Source: a virus. From it: a stretch of 30,357 nt of DNA. Made by a program: the position numbers and the translations under genes. The first letter of the stretch is position 1, and every line of letters starts with the position of its first letter. Below, one piece after another: positions 4,378 through 20,669 of the stretch. The DNA lies in IMG/VR virus record IMGVR_UViG_3300031569_000026, positions 1 through 30,357 of that record; one strand, given 5' to 3'. The notes beneath the pieces are model-generated. The model worked only from the letters and a program-made list of their open reading frames with translations. It was not told the origin of the DNA and ran no database searches.

Positions 4378-6381
4378 TTATCCTATTAATTTTTTCGCTG
4401 TATTATAGTACTCTTTTTCAAAGTTAGCTACTACGAACTTATCATACTCCTCTACAGTAGGGTATTTGTCTTTATAACCTAAGTCGTTGTTGTTCCAAAA
4501 TAGCCGTGCTCCTTTCCCATTCCATTTCGTATACCACATAGTTGCAACTTGTGCTCCCGTGAGGGGTTTGTCAAACCCTTTTCTGGTAAATGATGCGAGT
4601 TTTACTTTGAAGAAGGATGCTGCATTTCTAAAGCTTACATAGGCGATCCTGCATTTTGTTCCTCCTTCAGTTGCGAGTACGTATCCGTTTGTATTAGAAG
4701 CTCCTATTGTAGTAAATTTCCAGCCTCCTCTAGTTATATCAAACCCTCCGTAGTTATGGTTAAATCCTGATATCTTACCTCCTCTTCCTTGTTCTTGTAT
4801 TATTACAGCTAGGATTGCTATCTGTAGATTCTTATTATCTGTTGCGGCTAGTATGGCAGCTTTAGCTTCTTGGTACGTTAATATTGTTCTTTCAAATGGT
4901 TTTGGAATCGCGTCCCATCCGTTTGATAGTATATTAGTACCCGGTGCTGGGCAGTTTTTACCTGTAGTACTAAATACACCTGTACCTCCGGTCCCTCCTT
5001 CTGTTAGTGTAAGGTCTAGTGTTAGGTTGAATGCTTCTCCCTCTATGATATTTTTCTCTGCTAGTCCCATTATAGAAGAGATGGAGGTAGACCATCTTGC
5101 ACTGTCTACAGTGTGACTGACTCCTGTGACTGTAAAGTCGTACTCCTGGTCGTAGGAGAAAGGAAGTACGTCTTTTGTAATTTTAAACTTCTGAAATATT
5201 TTTATTCCACTTATTCCGTATAGCGTCAGGTCTAGCTTGATAGGTATAAATCCTGCAGGGGTTTGGTTTGTCTGTGTATACTGTCCTAGTAGGTACTTAT
5301 ATAGTTCTACTGGTATATTTTCTAGGTTTGTCTTCTCGTCTGATTTTAGAGTTACAGGGCTGAAGAGTTCGTTAGATACGGGTTGTTGGTTGGTTATTAG
5401 TTTTACATAACTTGCTAGGTTATCCCTGAATTTAGATTCAGCTTCCTCTTTTCTTTTATCCTTTGCTTTATTCTGTATCTCTACTACCTTACGACTTATC
5501 CCTTTTGTAGGGTATACCCTATCCTCAAGTCCATTATTGAGTTTTTGAAAGGCAACTGCTTCCTGACCTAGTGCTTCTCCGTTTGCTTGCGCTCCGACGG
5601 ATATCATAGTAGCTAAGTCTGGGGTTATGGAGGATTGTGCGGATATACTTGTTACCATGCTTTTTAATCCTTGAGCATTTATAGTTGATGTTTCTCTTTT
5701 ATCAGGGGAAGCTGCTTTAACTAGTCCTTTAATCCGTACTTGCTGGTAGTCTATTATTGTGAGTATGTCTTGTTTTCCATCTACGTCACCTACTACTTGC
5801 AGGTCGTTTATACTTCCCAGCGCTTTATTGACTCCGTTGCAAAGTTCTTGTAAGAATTTTGCTATTGATACCATATTACCTTCGTTGTCTGAATGTTTTA
5901 TTAACTGTTCGGAGATATAAGAGCAGTTCAGGTATATGTTATTTATATTTCCTAGAGTAGGGGCCATTTTAATAGTACTTCCGGAGGAGTCTGGGTCTAC
6001 TATACCTGCGCTTAGTTCACTTGCTAGGGCTCCAAGTTTTTCGTTATTGAATTTATCTACTGCGTTAAACGGTGATGGAAGTGTGTTATCTTTTGTTCCT
6101 TCGAGTGTACCTCCGGTTGTATTTAGAAGACTGTTACGTATATAGCATTTTTGAAGGTTAGTTGAAACAGTAGTAGAGTACATAAACATAGGCTTGTCGG
6201 ATTCAAAGTCTATTTGTATTATCTCTGCATTTTTTGAGTACATGTTTAGGTTAGTATTTGTCCATTCCAGTAAACCTTTGAAGGATAGGTATAACTCCTG
6301 TCCTCCGTCTGCGTACTCAATAACATTAAAACCAGCATACTCTGCGGATTTTAGCTTCTCTATAAATGTTGTATTATCCAT
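4378..6381 (-). CDS. Baseplate hub protein with C-terminal lysozyme-like domain
   Basis: This 667-aa protein appears to combine a hub platform with a cell-wall-degrading tip. The middle part (about 360-450) has PAGFIPIKLDLTLYGISG and then KFKITKDVLPF and FTVTGVSHTV, a beta-barrel pattern found in hub proteins of contractile tails. A Gly/Thr linker (about 465-475) and a Cys-Pro-Ala-Pro stretch lead into the C-terminal domain. There IIQEQGRGGKISGFNHNYGG (from about 527, candidate catalytic Glu 530) resembles phage muramidases and transglycosylases with a conserved Glu and NxxYGG. The domain would locally open peptidoglycan during infection, like gp5 of T4, though it is not the T4 lysozyme type. 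It lies 12 nt after the preceding hub gene. Confidence 0.78.
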   Translation of the reverse strand: MDNTTFIEKLKSAEYAGFNVIEYADGGQELYLSFKGLLEWTNTNLNMYSKNAEIIQIDFESDKPMFMYSTTVSTNLQKCYIRNSLLNTTGGTLEGTKDNTLPSPFNAVDKFNNEKLGALASELSAGIVDPDSSGSTIKMAPTLGNINNIYLNCSYISEQLIKHSDNEGNMVSIAKFLQELCNGVNKALGSINDLQVVGDVDGKQDILTIIDYQQVRIKGLVKAASPDKRETSTINAQGLKSMVTSISAQSSITPDLATMISVGAQANGEALGQEAVAFQKLNNGLEDRVYPTKGISRKVVEIQNKAKDKRKEEAESKFRDNLASYVKLITNQQPVSNELFSPVTLKSDEKTNLENIPVELYKYLLGQYTQTNQTPAGFIPIKLDLTLYGISGIKIFQKFKITKDVLPFSYDQEYDFTVTGVSHTVDSARWSTSISSIMGLAEKNIIEGEAFNLTLDLTLTEGGTGGTGVFSTTGKNCPAPGTNILSNGWDAIPKPFERTILTYQEAKAAILAATDNKNLQIAILAVIIQEQGRGGKISGFNHNYGGFDITRGGWKFTTIGASNTNGYVLATEGGTKCRIAYVSFRNAASFFKVKLASFTRKGFDKPLTGAQVATMWYTKWNGKGARLFWNNNDLGYKDKYPTVEEYDKFVVANFEKEYYNTAKKLIG

Positions 6382-10859: not shown

Positions 10860-13286
10860 TTATGAATTTACCGTTCTTGCACTCATATCTACAACACCTC
10901 CAGCAGCCTTCCAGTCACCGCCTACTGAGTAGCTATCTCTTGCAAATGTATTTGCTACTACTGCTCCGTTTAGCTCCAAAGTTATATTTGTATCAGAAGG
11001 TGTTATATTTACTGCACTTGCTGCTTGAGTGTTTCCTGCGGTACTTGCTTTATTGTTTTTTAATGTATTGTATTCTCCCACTATTCCAGGTCCAGCCATT
11101 ATGTCGTCGTTCGGACTCATACTGTAGATACCTCCTTCTTTTGGATCGGTAATGGTTGGTCCGTTAGCAGGCATTGAAAGGTCTCCTACAGAGGAGAGGA
11201 ATGAATATGCAGCTCCGCCTGCTATTAGTGCAGCTACTCCTGCTGCTCCAAAGGTTGTAGCGGAAGCACCGGCTATTTGAGCGATAGAGGCAGCGATGGC
11301 GGCGACTTTAAAAGCTAACATCAACGGTACAATCACTTTCATAGCGGTTACTATTCCGCCTATATTGTCTCCTATAAGCGTGAATGCTTTATCTATATAC
11401 GGAAGTATTTTCTCAGCTATTGGTATAAAAGATTCTTGAAACTTCTGACCCATTGCGGCTAGTTTCTCTTGTATGGAGACTGATTCCATTTGGTCTGCTA
11501 ATGCTTCATTTCCTAATTTCTGTCTTGCTCCTTCTATCCCGTATAACTTTACTGCGTTCTCATACTTTTCCTTTTCATTATCTCCTTCAAATTGAGATAA
11601 GGCAGCCATTGCCTCTCTCTTCATTAAAGATTCAGCAAGAGTATCTTTAGTTAACCCGACAGATTTTGCTAATGCTGCTTGCTGTATTACATTCATGTCT
11701 CCAAACTCAGCAGCACTGCCGAAGTTTGCAGCTAGTTCTTCAGCTAACATTGCTTGATCTCCTATTAGAGCTGCGTACCTTGCTCCTTCTAGATTTAACT
11801 GTTTACCTGTTAGAAGTTCTGCTGCTAGCTCATCTTCAATAGAGGATTGGAAACTTAGTAGGGAGCTGCTAATACTCTCTAGGTCTTTCATCTCAAGTCC
11901 TAATGCTTTTGCTTTAAAGACTGCAGTTGCCATAGCTTCAGCGGATCCTCCAAGTTGAAGTTTAATTGCTGCTGAGATGTCTTTAATTCCTTCTAGTATT
12001 TGTTTTTCATTTAGAGCTAAACCTGTTGTAGCTTTTAAGGCTTTCACCTGGCCTTTATACTCGACAGTTTGTTCTTCTAATGTTTTATTGGTTAAGTATG
12101 TTGTATCTTGTAATACGCCTGCTGTTTCTGCGGAAATGCCGGCTTGTTTTGTTAGTTTTGTATAGGTAGCTAGGGTTTCATTTGACATTTTTGCAAATGT
12201 TCCGTACCGGTTATTTATCTCTTGAAATGAGGCGTTTAAGTTCCCTGTAGTCATGAAGAGCCCTTCTGTGTTCTCTGCTGCTGCGGTTAGCCCTTTATTA
12301 AGCTCGTTTGCTTGTTTATTACTTATCCCGAAGTTTCTAGCAGTGCCGGACGTTAAAGCGTCCATTTTCTTAAAGATGTTTATTACCTGTGTTAAAATAA
12401 GGGCAGAGATTGCTAGGGGGTCAGTGAGGTTTTTAACTATATCTTTACCTGTCTGTTTTAATATCAGGTTAAATGTTCCGAACCTAGTGGGTAGTTTCTC
12501 TCCATTTTCAGATGCTTTTTTTAATTTTTCACTTACTTTATCTACACTTGAGGACATGAACTTAAGCCCTGGTATTTTCGCAAAGCTTTTGGAGAGTGTG
12601 CCGGTTAGTCCTAAGAGTTTTTCTATTTTCTTTAAGTCCTCCTGTTCTTTTTTTCGTAGTATGTTTTGCTTCTCTAATTCTTCACGTTGTTGTTTGGTTA
12701 AGATAAGTTGTTGAGCAGAGACACTCATATTTCCTATAGCAGTATTTATGTACTTTTCATTGCCTTCTATCAATTTGTTTAGTTCAGCTACTCTATCTTT
12801 TTCAAGGTCCCTGTCTTCTTTACTCAGTGCCATTATGCCAGCTAACTCTTGGCTTTGGGTTTTGAGTGCTTTATTTCTATTTTCTACATTTTGTATTCGA
12901 TTTGCATCTTTCTCGGAGATTTTTCCATTTACACCGCCTATTTGTTCAGTTAGAGATTTTTCTTGTATTAAGGCTTTATTTATAAGGTCGTTATTCTTTT
13001 TAATTTGTCCAGAGACAGTCTTAATGTCAGAAAGGCCGGTTTTTTGATTAAAAATGGCTCTATTAATATCTTTATGTACTTTAAGGAGGTTTTGCTCAGA
13101 AGTAGTTTGACGAGTCCTGATTCCTAAGGTTTCCTTTAGTGATTCTACTAACGAAGAAGATACACCTAAACTCTCAGACTGTAGTTCAATCCTTTTCCTC
13201 AGTAGGGCGTTTTCTTCCTCTAAAGATTTGTTCATTTCTTTTTGGGCTTCGCTTCTTTCTTTTTGGTTTTTTAAATCCTCCTCCAT
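10860..13286 (-). CDS. Tail tape measure protein (gp29 role)
   Basis: This 808-aa protein is the longest helical protein of the window and sits where contractile-tail phages keep the tape measure, after the tail-assembly chaperone genes. The first 230 residues are charged coiled coil (Glu/Lys/Gln-rich). The middle is Ala/Leu-rich helix. A long hydrophobic stretch near residues 635-700 (IVTAMKVIVPLMLAFKVAA and following Ala/Gly-rich helices) could enter or cross the host membrane during DNA ejection. At roughly 1.5 angstrom per residue it would specify a tail of about 120 nm. The leader CCTATTTATAACATATG is shared with the gp13-like gene and has no Shine-Dalgarno. The GGAGGAGG directly after the ATG is coding (Glu-Glu-Asp). 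Confidence 0.88.
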   Translation of the reverse strand: MEEDLKNQKERSEAQKEMNKSLEEENALLRKRIELQSESLGVSSSLVESLKETLGIRTRQTTSEQNLLKVHKDINRAIFNQKTGLSDIKTVSGQIKKNNDLINKALIQEKSLTEQIGGVNGKISEKDANRIQNVENRNKALKTQSQELAGIMALSKEDRDLEKDRVAELNKLIEGNEKYINTAIGNMSVSAQQLILTKQQREELEKQNILRKKEQEDLKKIEKLLGLTGTLSKSFAKIPGLKFMSSSVDKVSEKLKKASENGEKLPTRFGTFNLILKQTGKDIVKNLTDPLAISALILTQVINIFKKMDALTSGTARNFGISNKQANELNKGLTAAAENTEGLFMTTGNLNASFQEINNRYGTFAKMSNETLATYTKLTKQAGISAETAGVLQDTTYLTNKTLEEQTVEYKGQVKALKATTGLALNEKQILEGIKDISAAIKLQLGGSAEAMATAVFKAKALGLEMKDLESISSSLLSFQSSIEDELAAELLTGKQLNLEGARYAALIGDQAMLAEELAANFGSAAEFGDMNVIQQAALAKSVGLTKDTLAESLMKREAMAALSQFEGDNEKEKYENAVKLYGIEGARQKLGNEALADQMESVSIQEKLAAMGQKFQESFIPIAEKILPYIDKAFTLIGDNIGGIVTAMKVIVPLMLAFKVAAIAASIAQIAGASATTFGAAGVAALIAGGAAYSFLSSVGDLSMPANGPTITDPKEGGIYSMSPNDDIMAGPGIVGEYNTLKNNKASTAGNTQAASAVNITPSDTNITLELNGAVVANTFARDSYSVGGDWKAAGGVVDMSARTVNS

Positions 13287-13318: not shown

Positions 13319-13582
13319 CTACCCTCCGTTATACCCTACTTTTTTACCTTTCATGTAATCTGGTACTTGTATTTTACCGGACTTTATTTTTGAAGTTAGT
13401 TCTTCCGGTGTCTCTTCTGCTTTATTCTGCTTTTGGTAATGTTCAGATAGTTTATGGTATACGTACTTTCGTAAATGTATAGGCAGTTCATAGACATCGC
13501 TGAAGGAGTATCCTCCCTTACCGTTGAATACGATCTCATGTATCTGATCAAAAATGTTCTTCCTATGTTCCGGCGTCAGGCC
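13319..13582 (-). CDS. Frameshift-dependent tail assembly chaperone extension
   Basis: This 87-aa reading frame between the gp26-like gene and the tape measure has no ATG, GTG or TTG near its beginning. It reads GLTPEHRKNIFDQIHEIVF, then NGKGGYSFSDVYELPIHLRK, and ends KVGYNGG. This looks like a real protein and is the only good coding sense in the interval. It is +1 relative to the gp26-like frame and opens directly at a run of seven T (13583-13589; codons AAC TTT TTT TGG). A +1 shift there would give a fusion of about 327 aa. That copies the lambda G/GT arrangement of tail-assembly chaperones directly upstream of the tape measure. Alternatives are non-canonical initiation at CTG or ATT, or a homopolymer indel in the assembly. 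Confidence 0.75.
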   Translation of the reverse strand, partial: GLTPEHRKNIFDQIHEIVFNGKGGYSFSDVYELPIHLRKYVYHKLSEHYQKQNKAEETPEELTSKIKSGKIQVPDYMKGKKVGYNGG

Positions 13583-14303
13583 AAAAAAAGTTAGACGTTA
13601 TAGGTAGAGTAATGTCCTCCTCGCCATTACTAGTTTCTACCGTAACTGTTAAGTTTATGTCTGGCTGTATTTCGTTTATGTATGCTCTTAGTGCTCTTGC
13701 ATCTTTAGCGAGTAAGGCAGTGTCAACGAATTTTCTAATTGTAGATACTTCTGTATCTCCATCTACAGCGGTAATTGTATGTTTCATTCTAGTAGTCATT
13801 TCTGGGCTACTATCTTTATTTATCTTCTGGAGACCTGTTATTTCTCTTGCAATTTTACTATTATCTCCTATTGTTAGTAGTTTAAACCGTACTTCCAACT
13901 TTGATGTCGGTAATGTGAATGTAAACTCTCTAGTTCCGGGAGTGATTAGCGATTCATTAAATGACTTATCCTCTAAGGTAGTGAGGTCTATAGTTTGAAC
14001 CTGTCCAGCGTAACTATACTGGTAATCTTTACCGTATCCTAGTATTCTTGCTGCAATCATAATCGCATTTTGATCTCCTATTAAGAGGTCGTTGTAATCT
14101 ACTTTGGTAATAAGTAATGCTTGAAGGAGTTTATCGATAACCGTACCTTTTGCTATGTAATTTGGATTTGTTAAGATATCCTCTTCTTTAGCGGTCATGT
14201 ACTTCATTTCAATCTTACCGCTCGATAGGGGACTGTCTTTTGGATAGAGTAATCCTTTTGAGGGGAGATCTATCTCTTCTGTTGGAAACTTGAATTCTGA
14301 CAT
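13563..14303 (-). CDS. 26: gp26-like baseplate hub / tail chaperone protein
   Basis: This 246-aa protein matches the T4 gp26-type baseplate family. It begins FKFPTEEIDLPSKGLLYP, continues with KIEMKYMTAKEEDILTNP and a helical stretch (IDKLLQALLITKVDYNDLL), and has a C-terminal domain with TSKLEVRFKLLTIGD. T4 gp26 is about 208 aa. The gene ends with SNFFWPDAGT. The TTT TTT TGG just before the end is the likely slip site that extends the product into the next reading frame. Its leader contains the 18-nt AT-rich box. Proteins in this position, directly before the tape measure, act as assembly chaperones in many tailed phages, so a chaperone rather than a virion role is possible. Confidence 0.82.
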   Translation of the reverse strand: MSEFKFPTEEIDLPSKGLLYPKDSPLSSGKIEMKYMTAKEEDILTNPNYIAKGTVIDKLLQALLITKVDYNDLLIGDQNAIMIAARILGYGKDYQYSYAGQVQTIDLTTLEDKSFNESLITPGTREFTFTLPTSKLEVRFKLLTIGDNSKIAREITGLQKINKDSSPEMTTRMKHTITAVDGDTEVSTIRKFVDTALLAKDARALRAYINEIQPDINLTVTVETSNGEEDITLPITSNFFWPDAGT

Positions 14304-14347: not shown

Positions 14348-14869
14348 TTATAGGTCTACCATCACAAACTTATTATTATAGTTCATAAGGTTATCTGCTG
14401 AGTAATCTATTTCGTCTATGTCTAGACCTGCTCTAGTGTATGCTGTTTTTATTGCGGTTAGGAACTCTACAAGTTTTGGATACTTCTGTAGGTCGTTTAA
14501 CTCATCTTCATTATCTTCTAATAGATAAGCTTCTGCTTTCTCTCGTGTGCTTTTTATTAAACTCTTTTCCTCTTCGGATAAAGGAGTAGCATTCTCCATA
14601 ACTATATACCCTAAGTCTTTAGATAAGGTCTTAACTTTATGTATTGGTATGATAGAAGGGAAGGAGTATTTTGTAAGGGTCTCAGCGTGTTCTAACTCTA
14701 CACTGTCTGTTGTTACCTTAATTACTTTTCCATCGGGCAATTCCAAGGCTACCCCATTGTCTCCATGGCCTAAGTAGGTTGCATTATACTTGTTCTTGAT
14801 AACCCCTACTAGGTCTGTGTATTTCTTAGAAGTTTTATCTTCTGCTAGTAAGTCCTTTATCTTAATCAT
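14348..14869 (-). CDS. Mini protein-kinase-like protein
   Basis: This 173-aa protein shows kinase-fold landmarks in the right order. A Gly-rich loop LGHGDNGVALEL (G34, G36, G39) is followed by VIKVT with K51, a nearby helix Glu (E60 or E63) and a hinge YIVMENA (M91-E92). A catalytic-loop-like DYSADN (D155 and N160, fitting DxxxxN) leads to a final VMVDL in which D172 takes the place of the DFG Asp. The protein ends there, so the activation segment and most of the C-lobe are missing. It may be a minimal kinase, a pseudokinase or a nucleotide-binding protein. The first ten residues (MIKIKDLLAE) resemble the T4 capsid-targeting leader. The ATG overlaps the upstream stop (ATGA). Confidence 0.6.
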   Translation of the reverse strand: MIKIKDLLAEDKTSKKYTDLVGVIKNKYNATYLGHGDNGVALELPDGKVIKVTTDSVELEHAETLTKYSFPSIIPIHKVKTLSKDLGYIVMENATPLSEEEKSLIKSTREKAEAYLLEDNEDELNDLQKYPKLVEFLTAIKTAYTRAGLDIDEIDYSADNLMNYNNKFVMVDL

Positions 14870-15129
14870 GATTTATGTATCTTCAGTGTTAACGTCTTTG
14901 TACCTTTTATAACTCGATGCCATTCATGCTTTGGTATAAAGATAGGTGTATTTATTGAGGTAGGCAACTTATTTTCTAATTGTAGCTGCCAATCTGTATC
15001 TCCTACTATCTCTATAGTCCTATCTTCATTATCTCTATGCCATAATAATTCTATAGGATCAATAGAGTGGTTGAATTCTCTAAGTATATAGTCCTTAGTA
15101 ACTTCTATATCTGTATAGGGTTTTACCAA
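14866..15129 (-). CDS. Small cupin-like protein
   Basis: This 87-aa protein has the outline of one small cupin barrel: YILREFNHSIDPIELLWHRD, then WQLQLENKLP, FIPKHEWHRVIKGTKTLTL and a C-terminal basic strand. The His residues in LWHRD and EWHRV could be metal ligands, but the classical two-motif cupin signature is incomplete. The gene overlaps the head-protein gene by 7 nt and the kinase-like gene by 4 nt, so the three are translated as one unit. A similar trio may travel together in related phages. The function is unknown. Confidence 0.6.
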   Translation of the reverse strand: MVKPYTDIEVTKDYILREFNHSIDPIELLWHRDNEDRTIEIVGDTDWQLQLENKLPTSINTPIFIPKHEWHRVIKGTKTLTLKIHKS

Positions 15130-15890
15130 AATCCGGTATAACTTCCTTTTAGTCCAAGTAGCTTGGAGTATCTCGGCAATCTACAACTCCAGTACCCTGC
15201 CTTAGTTTTATCTTTCTTCTCAGCACAGTTGTGTCTTTTTGCAAAGTTCTGTCTTGCTTCTGAATCGTTTATCTTGGCTTTTAGTCCTGTTGTACCTCCG
15301 AAAGATACTTTCTTTATTTTCTTAGTCTTTGGATCTTTGACGTATACAAAGAACTTCTTACTGCCGCCTCTCTTAGGTTTGTTTAAATCTACTTTCTCGC
15401 CTTGGTATTCTGCTTCTTTTAAGTCTTCTTTATGACTCAGCTTTTCACTTTCACCATTAGGACCGCTCCCGTCTTTATCATGAGGGTTACCGGACATTAA
15501 CGAACCGTCAGGCATCTTATGTACTTTGCCTTTCCATTCCTTACCGTCTTTAGTGAAATGAGGGACACCTTCTTTTTCTGTTAATTCCATAGGGAAATCT
15601 AAAGGTACTTTCCTACCTTCAAATGTGCTGAAATGACCTAGGTCGGTTTCTACTAGTATATGTAAGTCATCTCCAGAGAATTCTAATATGCTTCTTGCAT
15701 ATAAGGATCTTGCTTCTGCAAATAAGTTAAAGTATTCTTCTGACCCTGCTCTATAAAGGTGTTCGGTTAAAGGTTTATTGTTATCTAAATGGTACTTTAA
15801 TCCTTCTGAGAGGATCTCCTTAGGTACTAAGCTTTCGTTTAATATCACCGCTGGTTTAGTCTCACATGTATTGCATCCGCATCCGCACAT
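15123..15890 (-). CDS. Cys-rich structural protein, possible head-associated
   Basis: This 255-aa protein begins MCGCGCNTC, four cysteines in nine residues, a possible metal or disulfide knot. A helical segment follows (LKYHLDNNKPLTEHLYRAG), with SLYARSILEFSGDDLHILVE and GKVPLDF-like strands. The C-terminal 80 residues form a separate basic domain: KKFFVYVKDPKTKKIKKVSF, ARQNFAKRHNCAEKKDKTKA, GYWSCRLPRY. I associate this domain with structural or head-core proteins of marine T4-like phages. ILSE-G at residues 26-30 fits the T4 prohead protease preference (L/I-x-E before Gly/Ala). Expression probably starts at the 18-nt box in its leader, just after the terminator of the sheath-tube unit. Confidence 0.62.
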   Translation of the reverse strand: MCGCGCNTCETKPAVILNESLVPKEILSEGLKYHLDNNKPLTEHLYRAGSEEYFNLFAEARSLYARSILEFSGDDLHILVETDLGHFSTFEGRKVPLDFPMELTEKEGVPHFTKDGKEWKGKVHKMPDGSLMSGNPHDKDGSGPNGESEKLSHKEDLKEAEYQGEKVDLNKPKRGGSKKFFVYVKDPKTKKIKKVSFGGTTGLKAKINDSEARQNFAKRHNCAEKKDKTKAGYWSCRLPRYSKLLGLKGSYTGFW

Positions 15891-16014: not shown

Positions 16015-16503
16015 TTAAAAATTGAGGACACAATAGTCCATTCCTAGTGTTAGTGCAATGGTTTGTGCTGCAGAATCGTTATCGTAATCTAGATCTCCAA
16101 ATGTTGCATTTTTAATAAATGCTCCTTTTATTACCCATTCAGAAATTACATCTCCTACAGGTCCTACTAGATCTAATACTAATTCCTTTTTGTAGAAGTC
16201 AGAATATCCGTCTCTACCGGTTACAGATTCATGATGTAGTCGAGTCCATTCCATTACTGCCTGAGCTCCTGATGGAGTTATCGGATCAAATAATGTCATA
16301 GTGACGTCGTTCCATCTAAGTTTACCTTTTACTTTTCTGTATGTGTTTATATGGTTGAGTATTATTTCTCCTTGCTCGAATCCTAGACCTGATAAGCCTT
16401 TAATCATGAATGTCGGTATACCGTCCATATACATGATAAACCTATTTTGTACTTTAGGTTCGAATTGTGTGAAGAAAATCTCGTCTTGAGTTAATATTGC
16501 CAT
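16015..16503 (-). CDS. 19: Tail tube protein gp19
   Basis: This 162-aa protein is the major tail tube subunit; T4 gp19 has 163 aa. The sequence runs FEPKVQNRFIMYMDGIPTFM, GLSGLGFEQGEI, YRKVKGKLRWNDVTMTLFDP and MEWTRLHHESVTGRDGYSDF, ending with the typical beta sandwich strands. Hexamers of it stack inside the sheath and form the DNA channel. It follows the two sheath genes, as in T4 (gp18-gp19), and is closed by a strong terminator, as expected for a highly expressed protein. Its leader has a variant of the AT-rich box. Confidence 0.93.
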   Translation of the reverse strand: MAILTQDEIFFTQFEPKVQNRFIMYMDGIPTFMIKGLSGLGFEQGEIILNHINTYRKVKGKLRWNDVTMTLFDPITPSGAQAVMEWTRLHHESVTGRDGYSDFYKKELVLDLVGPVGDVISEWVIKGAFIKNATFGDLDYDNDSAAQTIALTLGMDYCVLNF

Positions 16504-16555: not shown

Positions 16556-18955
16556 TTAGCTTGGAAAAGCTACTCCTGTTGGTGTGATGTTAAAATCCAA
16601 GTAAACGAATTCAGCGGTCTTTGTAGGTTGTATGTACACTTGACCGACTAGTTGGTTTCTGTCTATTACATCTGATGTGTTATTTGATTCATCCATTACT
16701 ATCTTAAAAGCATATAAACCTTGGTTTTGTTGAATGCCTTCTAGGTAAGGTGTTACTTTGTTTATAAAGCTGTTTCGAGTAGCTGCAGAGTTCTGTTCGA
16801 AGACTATTCCTCCTGCTATTTGCTCGAAGTAGTTCTTCATCTCTATCAGTAGACGTCTTACGTTTATCCTATCTAAAGCAGATGCATTTGTTTGTAATGT
16901 CTTCTGTCCAAATAATACAGAACCAGTTCCGTTTATAAACGTTATAGGGTTTACTTTACTTGTGTATAGTTCGTCTCTGGAAGACTGTGTTAGTTTTCGT
17001 TCTCCTACTACTGAGGTTCCTAATACTCCTCTTTTTATACCTGCAGGTGCAAACCAGGGTGCTGATACTTTATCGGTATATGCAAATACTCCTGGTATTA
17101 GGGTTGATGGTGGTACGTTTACTCGTAGCCCTGTACTAGGATCTTGTAGTTCTAACCAAGGCCAGTATGTTGCTGCATAAGAAGAATCTAATGCCGCTGC
17201 TGCAGTTTTAACTGCACTTATTGTAGCTCCGTAGTTAACTATATCTACTATAGCGATTGCATCTCCTCTATTTTGTGTATTCTGTACTAAACTAGTTAAA
17301 GTTGAAACGTGTGCTGAGTTAGCGTAGGTTAATCCAGGTACTGTTATAACGTTGTACTTGTAGTCGTCTTTATTGGCTAGTAAGGCTATTGCTGAAGCGT
17401 AACTTGCTGCTGGTACACCTTGAGAGGTGTATATACTATTCTCTACTATGTCTTTATAGAAGGTTGAATTAGCGTTTGGCATTTCATCTCCTGATGCTCC
17501 TGCAAAGCTACCGCTCTGTACTACAGGTACATATGTTACGTATGTTGCTGAAGGAGTTCCTATATTTCCTAGGTAGTTAGGGGTTTTATAAGCTACAGAT
17601 TTAACTCTAACGTATTTAGAGTTGTTTACATAGTCTCCAGTAGTATCTAAATAGGTATCTGTTCCTTCAGTAACTAGTACTTGTGCCTGGTCTCCTATTA
17701 CTCTACTTATGTAATATCTTGAGTTCGGGTCTAGTGATAACCTAGTGTAGGTTTCTAAGACTACTTTATTATCATTTGTGTCATCACCTCTTCTAATAAG
17801 TAAACTGAATTCACCTGTAGATGTGTTTACTTCTGGGATCTCCCAACGTATATTATCTTTAGTTCCTAGTAGTAGGTTGCCATCGTTTTCTGGACCTATA
17901 CTGTTAGCTACTGTACCTTTTGTTAGAGTTTCTAATTCAAAGGCTACATCTCCGACTTGTGTTATTATATTATCTCCGGTTAGAGTTATTTCTAACGGAG
18001 TATGTGCTTCAAAGTTAGCAGCTGATAAGGTATAGTACACATAGCGGGTTCGTCTAGCGGTGCGGTCACGTGTTACGTATGACTTGTACCGTTCTCCTAT
18101 GTTAAAGTCGTCAGTATAGTCGTTTCTGTTTCCCGGTATAGATATTATCTCGAAGTTAGTTATACCTCCGTTTACATACGTTATACTACACATTCCTTTA
18201 CCCCATGCTCCGATTTGTCCGGTGAACCCTTGTGGTCCGTGTACAGATCCCATGGACTGTCCACTTCTAATATCGTAGCTATTGTCCCAGTTGTCGATAC
18301 TTTGACTTAGGTTATTCTGCCCTGGTATTAATCTACCGTCTGGGTTTAGTCCTAGTTGTGCACCTGGTATGGTTAGGACGTCTGTGGCTATGTACCCCGT
18401 ACCTGGTTTGGTTACATCTATTTGGTATTTGGTAGTTAAAGCAAAAGTAGTCCAATCGAAATACTGTTGAGGTGAATATTGTATTTCAAGTCCTTGTCCA
18501 CTTCCGCCTGTTGGTGTTACGGTATAGGATTGATTAAACCGTACTCCGATTGGGAATGTTGATATAGATGCAGATAGGTTAGTATCTGCTCCAACAGGTA
18601 TTGATGTACTTAGGGGAACAGTGTTCAGTATAGGGGTAGAGGTAGCGGCGGTAAAGGAGCCTGATACCACTCTTGTAACTAGTAGAGAAGTTCCTTCGTG
18701 GTTGAAGTAGCTCTCTGCTGAGATAGAAGTAAGGTACGTTGTATCTACAGTAGCACCCTCTCTTTGTCCGAACGTAAAACTATCTCCGAAGATGTTTACA
18801 TATTCTGAATAGCTTGTTACTAATGTGGGTATTTCTACCGGACCTTTAACAGTAGGGCCTATTATTGCTGCTCCTACTGTTGCTGGTTGGTTTCCTATTT
18901 GGGAAAAGTCTACTTCTCTAGCGACTACTCCCGGTGAGTTTAAGTATGTGCTCAT
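16556..18955 (-). CDS. 18: Tail sheath protein gp18, long paralog
   Basis: This 799-aa sheath protein starts STYLNSPGVVAREVDFSQIG and ends with the sheath C-terminus VYIQPTKTAEFVYLDFNITP. Sheath subunits form the contractile helical cylinder around the tube. It is paralogous to the neighbouring 566-aa protein at both ends, but about 230 residues (roughly 105-335) have no counterpart there. The insert is Gly/Thr/Asn-rich and contains GTGYIATDVLTIPGAQLG, a short strand pattern frequent in surface insertions of phage structural proteins. It probably forms an outward-facing domain. T4 gp18 has 659 aa. The gene starts 13 nt after the first sheath gene, with CATAAATA over that gene's stop codon. 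Confidence 0.93.
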   Translation of the reverse strand: MSTYLNSPGVVAREVDFSQIGNQPATVGAAIIGPTVKGPVEIPTLVTSYSEYVNIFGDSFTFGQREGATVDTTYLTSISAESYFNHEGTSLLVTRVVSGSFTAATSTPILNTVPLSTSIPVGADTNLSASISTFPIGVRFNQSYTVTPTGGSGQGLEIQYSPQQYFDWTTFALTTKYQIDVTKPGTGYIATDVLTIPGAQLGLNPDGRLIPGQNNLSQSIDNWDNSYDIRSGQSMGSVHGPQGFTGQIGAWGKGMCSITYVNGGITNFEIISIPGNRNDYTDDFNIGERYKSYVTRDRTARRTRYVYYTLSAANFEAHTPLEITLTGDNIITQVGDVAFELETLTKGTVANSIGPENDGNLLLGTKDNIRWEIPEVNTSTGEFSLLIRRGDDTNDNKVVLETYTRLSLDPNSRYYISRVIGDQAQVLVTEGTDTYLDTTGDYVNNSKYVRVKSVAYKTPNYLGNIGTPSATYVTYVPVVQSGSFAGASGDEMPNANSTFYKDIVENSIYTSQGVPAASYASAIALLANKDDYKYNVITVPGLTYANSAHVSTLTSLVQNTQNRGDAIAIVDIVNYGATISAVKTAAAALDSSYAATYWPWLELQDPSTGLRVNVPPSTLIPGVFAYTDKVSAPWFAPAGIKRGVLGTSVVGERKLTQSSRDELYTSKVNPITFINGTGSVLFGQKTLQTNASALDRINVRRLLIEMKNYFEQIAGGIVFEQNSAATRNSFINKVTPYLEGIQQNQGLYAFKIVMDESNNTSDVIDRNQLVGQVYIQPTKTAEFVYLDFNITPTGVAFPS

Positions 18956-18968
18956 CTAGATTTCTTAT

Positions 18969-20669
18969 TTATGCTGGAAATGCTACTCCTGTTGGTGTAA
19001 TATTGAAGTCTAAGTAAACGAATTCCGCTGTTTTAGTTGGTTGTATGTATATTTGACCTACTAGTTGGTTTCTATCTATTACAGCTGCTGAGTTATTAGT
19101 TTCATCCATTATAACTTTAAAAGCGTAAAGTCCTTGTTTTTGTTGTATGCTTTCTAGGTAAGGATTAACTTGTGCTAAGAAGTTGTTTCTTGTAGCTGCA
19201 GAATTTTGTTCGAATACTAGGTTCTGTGCTACTTGAGATATATAAGATTTCATTGTAATTAACAGTCTTCTAACATTTACTCTGTCCAAAGCAGATGCTT
19301 TAGTTTGTAATGTCTTCTGTCCGTATACTACTACCCCTGTTCCTGGGAAAGAAGCTATTGGATTTACTTTACTACTATATAGTGTATCTCTAGTTGCTTG
19401 TGCTAGTTTTCTTTCTGGTCTAACTACTTGCCCTAAACCTCCTCTGTTTATACCTGCTGGTGCAAACCAAGGATCAGAGACAGTATCATTGTATGCAAAT
19501 ACTCCGCCCATTACTGCTGATGCTGGTACCCATACTTGTTTTCCTAGGTCTGGATCTATTACCTGTACCCATGGCCAGTATGAAGATGCATATGAAGTAT
19601 TTCTACTTGCTGCTTGACCTGTTACTGCAGTTACAGTTTGTCCGTACTTAACTAGGTCTAATATATAAAGATTATCGCCTCTTTCTTGAGTGTTACTAAT
19701 TAGACTTGTAGCTTGTGATGTATAATCAGCGTTATATAGTCCTGGCGTCAGCATTATGTTGTACTTGTAGTCATCAGAGTTAGATAGTAGATTAATCATG
19801 TTTGTATAATCTGTACCTACAACGCCTTGTGTATCTGTATTGTCTATTGTATTATAAAATTTAGCTCCACCTGCTACGTCTCCAGTTGCACTTTCAAATC
19901 CACCTGCAGCAACTACGGGTATTGAACCTGTGTATGCTGTCTTAGCAGTGCCTGAATTGTCTAGGTAATTTGGTGTAGGTGAATTTACTTCGCTTACTCT
20001 TATGTACTTAGAAGCTATAGGATACGATCCTGAGGTCTCTAGGTAGTAACTAGTACCGTCAGCAGCGTAATTAAAGGATTGGTCTCCTATTAGCCTTGCT
20101 ACGTAGTTTGGAGAAAATGGATCTAGTGATAGGTTAGTCCAGGTTTCTAATACTGATTTCTCGTTTGTTGTATCGTCTCCTTGTCTAATTAGAAGGTCGA
20201 ATGTTCCTGAACCTGTATTACTTGTTGTTACTTCCCATCTAACGTTGTTTACTGATCCGCTATCCATTGATCCGTCTGAGTTTAAAGAAGATGAACTATT
20301 CATCAATAAGCCTTCTGCTAAGGTTTCAAACGTTACTGCTACAGTAGTGCTTTCTCCGTAAACGCTTGCTGCAGCTGAAGTATATGATCCAGAAACTACT
20401 CTAGATACCAATAAACTTTCTCCTCCGTTGTTGAAGTAGTTGTAAGCTGTTATTGATGTAAAGTACGTATATGCGTTACTTGCACTTGTAATTGTAGTGC
20501 CGAATACGTTTTGGTACTCGCTATACGATGTAACTACTGTTGGAACCTCTACAGGTCCTCTAGCTGTTGGTCCGATTATCGCTGCTCCTACCGTGATAGG
20601 TCCTTGAGTGATAAAAGACTGGTCATTCTCTCTTGCGAGGACCCCTGGTGATATTAAAGTTTCTGCCAT
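18969..20669 (-). CDS. 18: Tail sheath protein gp18, short paralog
   Basis: This 566-aa sheath protein starts ETLISPGVLARENDQSFITQ and shares the C-terminal block QPTKTAEFVYLDFNITPTGV with the following paralog. It contains only the conserved sheath core (N-terminal GPTARGPVEVPTVVTSYSEY, then VRWEV strands, SSYWPWVQVIDP and AQATRDTLYSSKVNPI) and lacks the large insert. It is the first gene of the sheath-sheath-tube unit and carries a TATTTATTA variant of the leader box. Whether both paralogs enter the same sheath, for example as body and terminal rings, or are alternatives cannot be told from sequence. Confidence 0.93.
   Translation of the reverse strand: MAETLISPGVLARENDQSFITQGPITVGAAIIGPTARGPVEVPTVVTSYSEYQNVFGTTITSASNAYTYFTSITAYNYFNNGGESLLVSRVVSGSYTSAAASVYGESTTVAVTFETLAEGLLMNSSSSLNSDGSMDSGSVNNVRWEVTTSNTGSGTFDLLIRQGDDTTNEKSVLETWTNLSLDPFSPNYVARLIGDQSFNYAADGTSYYLETSGSYPIASKYIRVSEVNSPTPNYLDNSGTAKTAYTGSIPVVAAGGFESATGDVAGGAKFYNTIDNTDTQGVVGTDYTNMINLLSNSDDYKYNIMLTPGLYNADYTSQATSLISNTQERGDNLYILDLVKYGQTVTAVTGQAASRNTSYASSYWPWVQVIDPDLGKQVWVPASAVMGGVFAYNDTVSDPWFAPAGINRGGLGQVVRPERKLAQATRDTLYSSKVNPIASFPGTGVVVYGQKTLQTKASALDRVNVRRLLITMKSYISQVAQNLVFEQNSAATRNNFLAQVNPYLESIQQKQGLYAFKVIMDETNNSAAVIDRNQLVGQIYIQPTKTAEFVYLDFNITPTGVAFPA

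Follow-up and report, generated by a model that had tools for sequence, protein, structure and literature searches.

Introduction

G/GT frameshifting is a classical feature of tail assembly chaperone genes: in phage lambda, a short chaperone is encoded between the tail tube and tape measure genes, and a −1 ribosomal shift gives rise to its extended form. According to a 2016 review (PMC5009743), its conservation extends to all long-tailed phages ‘except T4’. Forward shifts have been proposed as well for chaperone ORFs that precede a tape measure gene, namely in the chaperone gene pair of HSTV-2 (PMC5009743) and in the HF1 group, where the motif is TTT-CGC (PMC7230728); no general motif is recognised for forward frameshifts (PMC10885494).

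T4 gene products 26 and 51 are tabulated as hub assembly chaperones (Virol J 2010, PMC3004832). Tail assembly chaperones of T4-like phages were identified by Vladimirov, Gautam & Davidson in 2022, as cited in PMC10885494 and PMC12846349; these two citing papers describe, respectively, some T4-like phages in which a short gene is accompanied by a fused long one, and poly-T −1 signals in T4-like phages.

Here we analyse a viral record of 30,357 bases (‘the window’, meaning the whole stretch of DNA studied). Its putative chaperone locus resembles lambda G/GT in layout, and unlike lambda it would shift by +1, at UUU UUU UGG. It differs from HSTV-2 and the HF1 group in hosts and proteins, and the TTT TTT TGG site of its family is conserved over hundreds of contigs. 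On the strength of sequence comparison, we consider it very likely that the locus encodes a two-isoform G/GT-type tail assembly chaperone produced by +1 programmed ribosomal frameshifting at a P-site UUU.

Results

Two overlapping putative chaperone ORFs lie between the tail tube and tape measure genes

ORF and profile reading of the window reveals a T4-type tail region on the minus strand. The tail tube gene, whose product is the presumed partner of the long chaperone form, lies upstream (16015–16503; phrog_4542 tail tube, E = 1.4e-23). The gene at 10860–13286, directly downstream of the chaperone ORFs, encodes an 808-aa protein that has no profile match in Pfam or PHROGs; its size, and a position equivalent to that of the annotated tape measure of Flavobacterium phage immuto, point to a tape measure protein, the presumed client. 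Between the two are the overlapping ORFs, just as in G/GT-type loci. The gp26-like ORF (13563–14303) runs from an ATG at 14303 to a TAG at 13565–13563, included in these coordinates, and encodes 246 aa, the putative short chaperone (TAC-N, gpG-like). The second ORF (13319–13582) is in the +1 frame relative to it and comprises 87 codons from GGC at 13582 to the stop codon at 13321–13319; it would encode the C-terminal domain of the long chaperone (TAC-C, gpT-like).

The tail tube, gp26-like and tape measure genes of immuto are consecutive, except for a miscalled remnant of the second ORF. While its gp26-like gene directly follows the tube gene, the window has three additional genes at that position (14348–15890, minus strand; 255, 87 and 173 aa). 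By eye, the 173-aa protein from this region has a likeness to a kinase N-lobe (GHGDNGVALELPDGKVIKV), with no Pfam match. The window also carries two tandem tail sheath genes (16556–18955 and 18969–20669, minus strand), the products of which (799 and 566 aa, both PF04984/PF17482) have almost identical C-termini.

At the junction, the gp26 frame ends with ...AAC TTT TTT TGG CCT GAC GCC GGA ACA TAG, while the second frame reads TAA CGT CTA ACT TTT TTT GGC CTG ACG ... GGA, its upstream TAA being read from the sequence at 13600–13598. ATG, GTG and TTG are all absent between this TAA and the conserved part of the second ORF. The T7 run at 13583–13589 consists of TTT TTT and the first base of TGG, and is where the P-site UUU is proposed to slip by +1. 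Since the single copy of TTTTTTTGG in the window, located at the junction, compares with 0.78 expected by chance, the T run alone is not significant in a single genome. The −1 slippery heptamer usual for G/GT genes, itself not a strict requirement, is not what the locus presents: the second ORF is in the +1 frame in every relative. Re-reading of the window upheld all coordinates of the original prediction.

The second ORF and the junction are conserved among relatives

Protein searches of IMG/VR yielded 137 loci, giving 138 sequences with the window. Both proteins are present in all 138, and every alignment that extends to the junction places the second ORF in the +1 frame, in identical register. 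All 97 complete +1 ORFs span 75–111 codons, an outcome with a chance probability of about 0.002 per locus. Substitutions between close pairs are distributed as 840/380/2127 over +1-frame codon positions 1/2/3, which indicates that the second ORF is translated and evolving as a protein; as judged from these alignments, it is under purifying selection in the +1 frame.

The 15-base junction TTTTTTTGGCCTGAC (13575–13589, minus strand) is near-invariant in 100 distinct junctions; because the sequences are related, our counts are not independent observations and exaggerate significance, although the pattern is uniform. At the two Phe positions, TTT occurs 197 times and CTT three times; TTC, which accounts for 15% of the Phe codons in the rest of these genes, never does. 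The next codon is TGG in 91 junctions, TTC in seven and TAC in two; it is followed by CCT in 100/100 and then by GAC in 89, though GAT dominates among Asp codons elsewhere. Variant sites among these relatives read TTT CTT TGG, TTT TTT TTC and TTT TTT TAC.

Seven T in an AT-rich genome form a plausible transcriptional slippage tract. RNA polymerase could drop one U or add two within T7 and so produce an in-frame fusion mRNA, and the T run is indeed conserved. However, the TTTCTTTGG loci (L047, L090, L097 and immuto) keep the +1 ORF without a long T run, as do distant members with TTC TTT CGT, TTT CTA TTC, TTT TTT CAC or TTT TTT AGT, and conservation extends to TGG and the bases downstream; we therefore regard transcriptional slippage as unlikely. 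The original prediction had named T7 as the slip site: the T run is conserved as expected, but T7 is not essential.

Could the second ORF instead be translated independently, by reinitiation or from a non-standard start near the gp26 stop codon? We looked for start codons in the +1 frame, beginning at the upstream stop and covering the first 25 codons. An upstream ATG in the +1 frame is found at 23 of the 100 junctions, and the −1 lineages described below often have an ATG just behind the gp26 stop. Conversely, 43 junctions lack ATG, GTG and TTG altogether, and nowhere is the start position conserved. The conserved residues of the second ORF (GLT, R and F) begin at the junction itself, with G-L-T, and independent translation leaves the constraint on TTT TTT TGG unexplained. 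We thus hold independent translation to be very unlikely. A second ORF lacking a start of its own and joined to the gp26 frame by a conserved junction is, on sequence grounds, what a programmed frameshift predicts. The across-relatives comparison thereby agrees with the original prediction that the second ORF is out of frame, that the junction T's are kept and that a start codon is not.

Downstream of the junction we detected no stimulatory RNA structure (z −0.58, equal to that inside gp26), and inspection of the junction contexts revealed no obvious Shine-Dalgarno-like stimulator.

A 15-base motif locates the gene

We scanned viral contigs for the bare 15-mer TTTTTTTGGCCTGAC, with no protein query, and obtained matches in at least 119 contigs. 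The 119 listed scan matches, along with three genome-contig loci, were analysed by tblastn: among the 122 loci listed, 107 have a gp26-like protein and a second ORF in +1, 14 have the gp26-like protein only and one has neither. Judged by frame alone, 105 of the 119 matches listed combine a long frame upstream with at least 70 open codons in +1. Of the remaining listed matches, three are cut off by the end of the contig, and most of the rest come from divergent members whose +1 ORF has 57–69 codons. The outcome of this blind scan renders the 15-mer nearly diagnostic for the gene.

One match, L333, was rejected as a family member, its frames indicating a chance occurrence of the 15-mer. Six others (L251, L273, L297, L323, L342 and L343) constitute a divergent subfamily with the same +1 junction and a second ORF of 58–63 codons, the consensus of which is GLTxxYxxxxYEQFFxLKYYGGWSxxEAYNLPIxLRxWFV.

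The predicted short and long products correspond to T4 gp26 and gp51

The gp26-like protein matches PF12322 (E = 1.5e-5; 25.2 bits, with a curated cut-off of 24.5) and phrog_150 (E = 2.1e-12; 48 bits). T4 gp26 and T4 gp51 both match PF12322 strongly and are therefore paralogues, of which gp51 bears an additional C-terminal stretch. Searched singly against Pfam and PHROGs, the second ORF gave nothing significant; among pooled second ORFs, 13/32 have weak matches to phrog_32580 ‘tail assembly chaperone’ and 4/32 to phrog_634. A T4-free profile of the small ORFs of cyanophages and pelagiphages matches the C-terminus of T4 gp51 (E = 1.6e-8 for a nominal database of 1000). Alignment by hhalign of 153 +1-ORF representatives with the cyanophage/T4 gp51 C-domain is co-linear and scores 33.1 (probability 91%), as compared with 14.6 for the best of 40 column shuffles. 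Membership of the PF12322 family and homology of the C-domain together equate the gp26-like product with T4 gp26 and the predicted frameshifted product with T4 gp51. T4 differs in that its short and long forms are made from two separate genes, without a frameshift.

The AlphaFold2 model of the gp26-like protein is confident, with a pLDDT of 89.5. Foldseek against 350,542 PDB chains ranks the HK97 tail assembly chaperone 2ob9 first, as a weak match (E = 0.86, probability 0.54), and the top ranks of VIA-align are 3klu, 2ob9 and 5ir0 (Z = 6.0, 4.7 and 4.1, each weak; residues 1–92). We take 3klu to be YqbN, a tail assembly chaperone homologue. The individual scores being weak, it is the agreement of the two rankings that suggests a chaperone fold. 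The second domain alone is modelled as helical with low confidence (pLDDT 65.8), and a PDB sequence search with a profile of the fused form found no match. Comparative, profile and fold evidence thus all lend support to the original prediction of a G/GT-like locus ahead of the tape measure gene with a chaperone function. That gp26-type proteins are chaperones is, however, not new, having been tabulated earlier (PMC3004832) and, according to PMC10885494 and PMC12846349, addressed in the 2022 work.

Isolates and distant members share a UUU that can re-pair one base forward

Among isolates, Microcystis phage Mel-JY01 and Rhodothermus phage RM378 have TTT TTT TGG with the second ORF in +1, and Flavobacterium phage immuto has TTT CTT TGG, also in +1. 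Three further isolates differ at the +1 junction: Bacillus phage SP-15 has TTT TTT CAC, Listeria phage LIS04 has TTT TTT AGT, and the predicted +1 site of Streptococcus phage GXN1 (L142) reads TTC TTT CGT C. In a 484-kb phage known from uncultured material the junction is TTT CTA TTC. Since TTT CTT TGG, TTT TTT CAC, TTC TTT CGT and TTT CTA all occur, what these phages have in common is not T7 but a UUU, by inference in the P site, that is able to re-pair one base forward on UUN. This favours a ribosomal +1 shift over transcriptional slippage and over a −2 ribosomal shift. The latter would lead to the same final frame, with the product ...SNFFFGLT..., and T7 would permit re-pairing two bases back; re-pairing is nevertheless poor in TTT CTT TGG, TTC TTT CGT and TTT CTA TTC, where a +1 shift gives UUU/UUC, and we judge −2 shifting very improbable.

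In GXN1, a bacterial phage, the site coincides with the core of the +1 motif of influenza PA-X. In influenza A PA-X, as in the amalgavirus UUU_CGN motif, a P-site UUU slips by +1; these are eukaryotic RNA viruses with unrelated proteins, and the A-site codon in the family of the window is mostly UGG.

Homopolymers are error-prone, and we also considered a sequencing or assembly error, or a decayed gene. But over 200 contigs, as well as sequenced isolates, repeat the frame and the motif, and the +1 frame is under purifying selection. As isolates carry the same junction, we consider error or decay refuted. Neither of the outcomes that would have spoken against the original prediction, a plain fusion with six T or a conserved start codon for the second ORF, was seen among relatives.

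The predicted direction of the shift differs between lineages

The gp26 gene and the ‘baseplate hub assembly catalyst’ ORF of cyanophages and pelagiphages encode the same two domains, joined at the same Phe-Phe end, which is nearly invariant in both +1 and −1 lineages. Unlike in the window, their second ORF lies in the −1 frame in 90/90 contigs scored, and gp26 ends with an in-phase T TTT TTC or T TTT TTT. The gp26 genes of the cyanophage-like contigs (L166–L245) end in the −1 slippery heptamer T TTT TTC with hardly any variation. Frequently these loci also have an ATG (M-A/S-H) directly after the gp26 stop, in the −1 frame, so the second domain may be reached by two routes side by side. A 595-kb phage (LR756511.1, L145) similarly has the second ORF in −1 at about 4654–4926. 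Its heptamer T TTT TTC is in phase, and the gp26 stop is overlapped by an ATG (TAATGG); frameshifting and coupled initiation are both possible.

In a tree built from the gp26 domain, two changes are needed for the +1 members relative to the −1 members, and the −1 lineages XacN1, L246 and LR756511 fall among or beside +1 members. Long branches make the deep order unsure, and +1 shifting may have had a single origin.

Discussion

We propose that most ribosomes translate the gp26-like ORF normally up to the UAG and yield the 246-aa short form. In a minority of ribosomes, peptidyl-tRNA-Phe on UUU, with UGG in the A site, would move one base forward, from UUU to UUU; these ribosomes would go on to read GGC CUG AC..., bypass the UAG and produce a 327-aa long form with the added C-terminal domain. 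Homology and the analogy with lambda G/GT suggest that the shared domain coats the tape measure protein, and that the added domain recruits tail tube subunits; in assigning these client roles to the short and long forms we follow the lambda model as summarised in PMC5009743. The shift itself, the slip in the P site, the efficiency of the shift and the client interactions are what we infer from the computational picture of +1 frame, conservation, coding constraint and homology.

G/GT frameshifting, the chaperone role of gp26 and gp51, and proposals of haloviral +1 shifts are already known. In the literature we found no +1 shift described for the gp26/gp51 family, the 2022 study of T4-like chaperones being represented here by the papers that cite it. 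The original prediction regarded such a shift as unusual; for this gene pair there are precedents in the +1 proposals for haloarchaeal myoviruses (PMC5009743, PMC7230728). What appears to be new is that predicted +1 shifting is widespread in T4-type phages, as opposed to apparent −1 shifting in cyanophages and pelagiphages and to gene duplication in T4.

There is a practical consequence for annotation. Automated gene calling overlooks the second ORF or gives it a wrong start, as with immuto, where it is miscalled as a 36-aa fragment, and Mel-JY01, where it is started at a TTG inside gp26; the 15-base motif locates the gene.

The family offers a large natural set of predicted bacterial +1 sites with a sense codon in the A site, represented in hundreds of contigs and several isolates, and it brings the T4 gene products 26 and 51, long a puzzle, under a single mechanism. 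Probably the need for two isoforms has been kept within one chaperone family while the route to them varies, be it −1 or +1 shifting at the same Phe-Phe end or duplication as in T4. UUU UUU UGG would then be a site at which bacterial ribosomes shift efficiently by +1 with a sense codon in the A site, stimulated by neither a stop codon nor an RNA structure. This suggests that the direction of recoding can switch while the logic of the proteins is kept.
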